From Prochlorococcus marinus XMU1406 (lineage in GTDB: Bacteria > Cyanobacteriota > Cyanobacteriia > PCC-6307 > Cyanobiaceae), in contig NZ_JAAORG010000001.1 in NCBI RefSeq assembly GCF_017696055.1, forward strand, positions 62,001-126,000: DNA of 64,000 bases, in the 5' to 3' direction. Of the stretch, positions 60,666-64,000 are shown one piece after another. Both the position numbers and the translations under genes were made by a program. Each line of letters starts with the position of its first letter. Position 1 is the stretch's first letter. Under the pieces are notes generated by a model. The model was not told the DNA's origin, did no database searches, and saw only the letters and a program-made list of their open reading frames with translations.

Positions 60666-60902
60666 ATGACAGATTCTATTCCAATAAGACCTCTCAAGAA
60701 AGGAAGCTTAGTTTTTGTCGATAGAGAAAATTATCTAAAAAGTATCGAGGCGCTAGCCAGTGATAAAGATCTACCTAATTATGTCTTTGAAGGTCCTGGA
60801 GAGATTCTTGCAGTCAAAGACGAATATGCTCAGGTTCGATGGCGCATGCCGGTTCCAGATGTCTGGTTGAAATTGGATCAACTTAAAGAATATATTCAAT
60901 AA
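60666..60902 (+). CDS. ndhO: NAD(P)H-quinone oxidoreductase subunit O
   Basis: NdhO is a small stromal-side subunit of photosynthetic NDH-1. The 78-residue protein has the family pattern IRPLKKGSLVFVDRENYLKS, FEGPGEILAVKDEYAQVRW and the end VWLKLDQLKEYI. The frame opens five codons earlier, but ATG at 60666 gives the usual N-terminus MTDSIPI. It converges with the DnaJ gene. Confidence 0.95.
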   Translation: MTDSIPIRPLKKGSLVFVDRENYLKSIEALASDKDLPNYVFEGPGEILAVKDEYAQVRWRMPVPDVWLKLDQLKEYIQ

Positions 60903-63685: not shown

Positions 63686-63734
63686 ATATTTTACTTGTCA
63701 TAAGGCACTTTAAAGAGTTAAATTCATTTTATAT

Positions 63735-63806
<72 letters not shown>

Positions 63807-63811
63807 TTTTA

Positions 63812-63837
63812 AAGTCAAGAAAAGTCATGCTAAGTCA
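63812..63837 (+). repeat. Three AAGTCA repeats at 10-bp spacing
   Basis: The hexamer AAGTCA occurs at 63812, 63822 and 63832, exactly one helical turn apart, directly after tRNA-Asn. The third copy forms the left arm of the terminator stem. Confidence 0.6.
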
Positions 63838-63857
63838 CCTATTCGGTGACTTTTTTT
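63832..63857 (+). terminator. Rho-independent terminator after tRNA-Asn
   Basis: An 8-bp stem AAGTCACC / GGTGACTT with the 5-nt loop TATTC is followed directly by a run of T. It is the strongest intrinsic terminator in the window and should end the tRNA-Asn transcript. Confidence 0.85.
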
Positions 63858-63887
63858 GCCTATAACTACCTTCTCAGTGAAAAATGT

Positions 63888-63969
63888 CTAGACGAATAAT
63901 GACACTATAGTGCAATTTTATTCGTCCAGTATTCGTCTTTTTATTCGTCTTTTAGTAAAAATATTCGTC
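63888..63969. repeat. TATTCGTC iterons with a nested palindrome
   Basis: Four direct copies of TATTCGTC start at 63919, 63930, 63942 and 63962, and one inverted copy (GACGAATA) lies at 63891. The inverted copy and the first direct copy are arms (CTAGACGAATAA and TTATTCGTCCAG, 11 of 12 match) flanking a perfect 10-bp palindrome CACTATAGTG at 63903-63912. This is a dense protein-binding or recombination-type arrangement; its role is unknown. Confidence 0.75.
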
Positions 63970-64000
63970 CAGATTTTTAGTCACTTTTACTGCTATTTTC

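Follow-up and report, generated by a model that had tools for sequence, protein, structure and literature searches.

Repeat Cluster behind the tRNA-Asn Gene

A dense group of 8-bp repeats lies close behind a tRNA-Asn gene at the end of the 64,000-nucleotide stretch of Prochlorococcus marinus XMU1406 DNA analyzed here (the window; G000:C1:62001-126000, within a 1.65-Mb assembly), and the question it raises is what these repeats serve. The first-pass annotation had described four direct copies and one inverted copy of the word TATTCGTC, with spacings of 11 and 12 bp, a perfect palindrome (CACTATAGTG) nested among them, and two copies extended to TATTCGTCCAG; all of these are present in the sequence (Table 1). 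The cluster (63891-63969) begins 83 bp beyond the tRNA gene, and the successive spacings of its copies are 28 bp (from the inverted to the first direct copy), 11, 12, and 20 bp. Six matches to TATTCGTC were counted in the window against 0.81 expected, a number reached in 0 of 100 shuffles; the sixth match, at 60819, is unrelated to the cluster. The whole genome contains 34 copies, seven of which fall inside 806 bp at this site, and the reversed control of the word occurs 61 times. It is the clustering of TATTCGTC that is exceptional, not its genome-wide frequency.

The palindrome did not hold up as a part of the design. It is perfect in only three of 18 related left ends (L003, L168, and L170) and is for this reason taken as incidental and dropped as a working part; the repeats themselves are kept.

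Table 1. Features of the repeat cluster and of the adjoining element. Positions refer to the window unless marked L003 (L003 coordinate = window position minus 60000); features given in L003 coordinates lie outside the window.
Feature	Position	Strand	Remark
tRNA-Asn (gtt), putative integration target	63734..63807	+	ARAGORN
CCGCCCGGGGA, core repeat of the tRNA 3' end, tRNA side	63795..63805	+	
In-window part of the 963-bp element	63808..64000	+	
Terminator-like hairpin AAGTCACC/GGTGACTT plus T run	63832..63858	+	First feature of the insert; direct reading
Putative arm site, inverted copy of TATTCGTC	63891..63898	-	
Palindrome CACTATAGTG	63903..63912	.	Taken as incidental
Putative arm site 1	63919..63926	+	
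Putative arm site 2	63930..63937	+	11 bp on
Putative arm site 3	63942..63949	+	12 bp on
Putative arm site 4	63962..63969	+	20 bp on
60-aa ORF	L003 4013-4192	-	
105-aa ORF	L003 4357-4674	+	
Far putative arm sites	L003 4677-4684 and 4689-4696		
Far core repeat CCGCCCGGGGA, 11-bp copy of the tRNA 3' end	L003 4769-4779		

The 963-bp Element and Its Cargo

Two further direct copies of TATTCGTC, 12 bp apart, were found 0.7 kb beyond the window end. A repeat of the tRNA-Asn 3' end, which the first-pass annotation had proposed to look for, was detected there as well: the far copy of CCGCCCGGGGA lies 73 bp after the last far TATTCGTC copy and 963 bp on from the tRNA-side one. The insertion starts at the tRNA end and measures 963 bp, and the tRNA-Asn gene is left whole. 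The terminator-like hairpin at its beginning is equally placed in the related left ends.

Neither a recombinase or integrase gene nor a recognized excisionase gene was detected among the ORFs of the element. The integrase gene expected nearby is absent from it; the genome yielded just two PF00589 genes, both located elsewhere. Pfam and PHROGs gave nothing firm for the 105-aa or the 60-aa ORF (a COX7C match at E 0.036 misses its cut-off); Pfam returned no replication family for either, PADLOC had no match to the 105-aa ORF, and the phage collection contained no match to the 963-bp element. Relatives of the 105-aa ORF were found in 153 of the 266 genomes of the genus, at varied places (L291-L320), with dN/dS values from 0.05 to 0.41 in 26 of 28 pairs and dS of 0 in the other two. 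The 105-aa ORF reads as a roaming cargo gene.

The reading of the locus as the edge of a mobile island was largely right. The repeated tRNA end, the second cluster, and the patchy presence agree with it; its size does not, the island being a sub-kilobase, integrase-less element of only 963 bp.

Two neighboring observations may be added. In L293, L298, and L308, the 105-aa gene stands beside CATGTGAAACC-type repeats near the 3' end of a GMP synthase gene (guaA; family confirmed for L293 only), which is perhaps another integration site with its own word. Directly after the element (L003 4780-6980, 0.8-3 kb beyond the window), there is a second, apparently decayed insert. It has a hairpin and repeats of the ATGGTGGGGAA/ATGGTGGCGAA kind and encodes a protein of 549 aa, whose sequence, by inspection, reads as TPR repeats plus a sulfotransferase.

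The TATTCGTC Family across the Genus

The search of related genomes for the word, also proposed in the first-pass annotation, revealed close TATTCGTC pairs in 17 of the 266 genomes of the genus, all behind tRNA-Asn (the 16 others being L167-L182). The far pair was present in 15 of these 17 carriers, and none was found in L167 and L182. In the alignment of left ends, the L167 row is out of register, having begun at the wrong repeat; the alignment of right ends leaves out L167, L182, and L096.

The ends of the TATTCGTC elements are kept while their cargo varies. Mostly it comprises the 105-aa ORF, often together with the 60-aa ORF; however varied the remainder, it includes a cation-efflux gene in L088 (Pfam), a T5orf172 gene (Pfam) plus the 105-aa ORF in L095, and three other ORFs in L169, and the 210-bp form of L075 (same as L173) has no cargo. 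The left end of L095 consists of TATTCGTC repeats running into a copy of another word, TACTAGTC, and its T5orf172 gene has a counterpart in the L064 element with 95% identity (202 aa); judged by these two stretches, L095 is a recombinant of two element families. Little beyond the two element ends is present in inserts observed in L075/L173, L068, L074, and L087, which measure about 180-210 bp and look as if the inner part had been lost between repeats.

Among the eight genomes compared that carry the 963-bp form, identity is 88-98% across the element and 71-95% across the stretch upstream of the tRNA. Of the 28 pairs, 27 agree better within the element than within this flank, and only L050 with L176 does not (0.946 vs. 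0.949); this excess argues that the element moves, and its spread across divergent strains suggests that it still does. No L064-type recombinase is encoded in any TATTCGTC element, and among the 17 carrier genomes only G523 has one elsewhere (E 1e-5).

tRNA-Asn as an Insertion Hotspot

The 80 named loci used for comparison are the best relatives of the upstream ABC-transporter gene and belong to Prochlorococcus but for two Synechococcaceae. Most of them have no TATTCGTC clusters at the site, with a short gap or other inserts instead; the arrangement named beforehand as contrary to an island, with core genes following directly and the same repeats in all relatives, was not seen. The next conserved gene, a response regulator, was reached in 64 of the 80 loci. 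Its distance from tRNA-Asn is 840-1130 bp in 28 of the 64 and longer in 36 (more than 2 kb in 24), and many of the longer gaps carry further copies of the tRNA end. Among the loci listed, the tRNA-adjacent insert carries its own terminator-like hairpin at the start and, in many cases, a repeated word of its own after that. The tRNA-Asn site is an insertion hotspot.

Cutting at the tRNA-end repeat yielded 51 pieces from 39 of 95 distinct loci, seven duplicate regions having been removed beforehand. In a first end-sharing test on all 51 pieces, an 8-mer was common to both ends in 73% of true pairs vs. 34% of mismatched pairs. The layout counts were made on the 42 pieces of at least 500 bp. In 30 of these 42 (nine of the 30 being TATTCGTC elements), a common layout was found: the insert has a word of its own, present two or more times near the tRNA and again as a pair spaced 11-12 bp at the far end. 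A few of the 30 (L080, L085, and the first insert of L170) have loose spacing among the tRNA-side copies, and 12 inserts fail the layout test. The distance from the last far copy to the repeated tRNA end is 68-74 bp in all 30 inserts and 71-74 bp in 28, a gap known to a few bases because the 8-mer frame is arbitrary. When ends of different loci were re-paired, with same-word pairs left in, 52 of 400 passed the layout test, 45 of them with the same gap. An 8-mer with at least four copies over both ends was present in 25 of the 42 inserts; by the same measure, 20,000 re-pairings gave 3.4 on average and 10 at most. More than 10 distinct words occur at the site, including TATTCGTC, TACTAGTC, TGTTGGGA, TGTTCGGG, ATGGTCGT, and TGTTCGCT, as well as GTTCTGGT, GGTCGGGA, GGTGGCGA, TGCAGGTG, and AATGTGTG. 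The interest of the locus lies in this general layout and in the private words, not in the palindrome.

Link to Tyrosine Recombinases

Tyrosine recombinase genes (Pfam) were found in the inserts of L064 and L051, the L064 protein being 409 aa long with a PF00589 domain. In the L064 element, the word TACTAGTC occurs at offsets 86 (inverted), 114, 125, 137, and 157 on the tRNA side and at -92 and -80 on the far side; in the focal element, TATTCGTC occurs at 85 (inverted), 113, 124, 136, and 156 and at -92 and -80. The two sets differ by a one-base shift on the tRNA side and are identical at the far end. Because the offsets are so nearly the same, an L064-type enzyme with another N-terminal domain would be the most likely helper of the focal element. 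Integrase arm sites had been one of several options in the first-pass annotation, and the same layout in elements that carry a tyrosine recombinase speaks for this one.

L064-type recombinases (E up to 1e-5) were detected in 22 of the 266 genomes of the genus. The 24 regions around them include five with tRNA-Asn, 12 with tRNA-Ser, and seven with no tRNA in reach. A strict exact-copy test was applied to 23 of the 24 fetched regions (L143-L165, among which L158-L160 are near copies). Two clusters of one word were found in 14 of the 23 regions, vs. 0 of 92 shuffles and 0 of 73 controls, the latter being three thirds of the window and 70 orthologous stretches upstream of the tRNA that are shorter (mostly about 10 kb); nine regions fail the test.

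Word similarity was correlated with N-terminal identity (Spearman 0.44, p 0.003 and 0.005 in two runs) in a set of 16 of the 22 recombinase proteins, for which the words were picked by hand and those of L144, L145, and L151 rest on two copies. Given the catalytic part, the N-terminal correlation was 0.40 (p 0.004, 16 proteins); for the core-binding and catalytic parts themselves, the values were 0.19 and 0.21 (p 0.07 each). With close pairs removed (12 proteins), the N-terminal value was 0.34 (p 0.02), the core-binding value was equal (0.34, p 0.03), and the partial test was not significant (p 0.10). On this small set, the correlation fits an N-terminal domain that reads arm sites; N-terminal arm-binding domains of this kind are described in passages of PMC8138268 and PMC2951348. 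The structural model of the L064 recombinase is poor (mean pLDDT 45.9) and has strands followed by a helix at residues 24-85. A profile built from seven recombinases matched no PDB chain.

Proposed Function of the Repeats

We consider that the TATTCGTC copies are probably, with a chance of about 0.8, arm-type sites for the N-terminal domain of an L064-family tyrosine recombinase, placed at the ends of a non-autonomous element. The element itself, its ends, its patchy and horizontal spread, and a layout in common with integrase-bearing elements can be read directly from the sequences compared. The 963-bp element would integrate into the 3' end of tRNA-Asn, leaving the tRNA whole and bringing its own terminator-like hairpin. 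The cargo (105-aa and 60-aa ORFs) would then lie between two clusters of putative arm sites: next to the tRNA a group of five, of which four are direct and one is inverted, and at the other end a pair with a 12-bp spacing. Since the element has neither an integrase nor a recognized excisionase, a helper would have to act in trans. This helper, a recombinase that reads TATTCGTC by binding it with the N-terminal domain, may come from a co-resident or an incoming element and would perform both excision and integration in trans. The core repeat CCGCCCGGGGA, which is only 11 bp long, counts against this reading.

A different, rather unlikely view is that the arm sites are real and the element is decayed, having lost its integrase and spreading only by homologous recombination or along with neighboring elements. 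The missing integrase, the tandem arrays with other inserts, and collapsed forms such as L075 are all in keeping with decay; the ends, however, are kept across different cargo, and L170 and L175 hold the element further down an array, behind other inserts. Moreover, L003 and L174 are 90% identical in the element (0.895) vs. 71% in the upstream region (0.710), a contrast not favored by plain exchange through the flanks.

Less probable still is a reading in which the repeats are bound not by the integrase but by some other protein from the element or helper, for example, an AlpA-type excisionase or a repressor. One insert of the L175 array encodes an AlpA-like protein (Pfam), and such factors therefore exist at the tRNA-Asn site. 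Nevertheless, none was recognized in the TATTCGTC elements, word similarity tracks the N-terminal domain of the integrase, and the arrangement, which on one side places pairs at a constant distance from the core and on the other has three or four sites, resembles the layout of integrase arms.

The resident single-copy XerA-like recombinase L099 would make a mobile helper unnecessary, and just one other PF00589 protein was found in the genome; this role is nonetheless very improbable, as the L064 search at E 1e-5 did not match L099 in its own genome and no TATTCGTC clusters were seen around it. Iterons of a replication origin or a partition site can practically be set aside despite direct repeats near one helical turn apart, since the copies stand at both ends of the insert, the words differ between inserts of equal geometry, and neither the element nor the listed ORFs as far as the response regulator include an initiator, helicase, primase, or partition gene; the replication, partition, and repressor options of the first-pass annotation lapse with the absence of such genes and with repeats at both ends.

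Comparison with Known Systems

The reading of TATTCGTC as arm-type sites places the element closest to attachment sites of the lambda type, whose layout has two plus three arm sites. The short core repeat at the tRNA 3' end (CCGCCCGGGGA at both ends) is of this type, as are, on the proposed reading, the repeated sites in the two arms, a pair in one and three or four in the other. Unlike lambda-type sites, the focal element comes without a recombinase, its putative arm sites are known from sequence alone, and many words occur at one target tRNA.

Cis-mobilizable elements (CIMEs), as defined in PMC5704250, likewise keep both att ends, are devoid of integration genes, and form tandem arrays at one target. 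Inspection of the ORFs in the TATTCGTC elements, supplemented by a Pfam scan of ten proteins, revealed no transfer gene. The focal family differs from CIMEs in having no transfer gene seen or ancestor traced, and in combining several cargo types with the same ends. Tycheposons, quoted in an excerpt of PMC10872708 as 4-200 kb long and carrying a recombinase, share with our locus the Prochlorococcus host, the tRNA target, and, in the neighbors at the same tRNA, a tyrosine recombinase with cargo; the focal element, 0.96 kb long and without a recombinase, is set apart from them as far as this second-hand description goes. Unlike an iteron replication origin, the TATTCGTC repeats have no initiator gene beside them. 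Among the titles and abstract openings listed from the open-licence literature, none dealt with element-specific repeat words in Prochlorococcus islands.

A Possible Word-Addressed Mobilization Scheme

Much of the gene exchange of this extremely abundant marine phototroph runs through islands at tRNA genes, and many pieces are without a recombinase. A wider scheme, for which we would give slightly less than even odds, is mobilization in trans addressed by words: many small cargo-only elements at one tRNA would carry private arm words of about 8-10 bp, each keyed to one recombinase. As parts of the same tentative scheme, the set of recombinases would be diversifying, with N-terminal domains reading the words, and cargo might change its address by recombination, as in L095 and in the occurrence of the 105-aa gene on several kinds of elements. 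If the scheme is true, elements below 1 kb, perhaps even those of about 200 bp, could stay mobile with no enzyme of their own. The fixed geometry (a word pair, about 73 bp, and a tRNA-end repeat) together with element-specific words makes recombinase-less pieces findable by sequence, and the words allow each piece to be paired with the recombinase that could move it. A putative code by which the N-terminal domains of recombinases recognize DNA words thereby becomes testable.

Search for a TATTCGTC Recombinase

A recombinase element with the TATTCGTC word was found neither in the genome of the strain itself nor in the 266 genomes of the genus or the viral contigs, and scanning 400 genomes of the family with the pattern alone yielded no TATTCGTC recombinase. 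Close TATTCGTC pairs occur in 108 viral stretches. Used as queries in tblastn (E up to 1), two recombinases and the 105-aa protein found no relative in the 80 stretches covered, and no tRNA-Asn end was present in these 80 loci. L321, alone among the viral loci in having a recombinase relative, is without TATTCGTC.

Some further occurrences were recorded. A single TATTCGTC pair is present in G014, which represents another genus within the family. Unrelated viral contigs (L197, L247, L258, and others of L183-L262) contain tandem TATTCGTC arrays at steps of 11-12 bp. L099 (G000:C1:475934) encodes a lone 389-aa PF00589 recombinase beside genes reading as hemH and cobO. Contig C2 of the same assembly (L098) carries phage-like genes and a recombinase, which were read as foreign to the genus, and appears to be a contaminant or another replicon.
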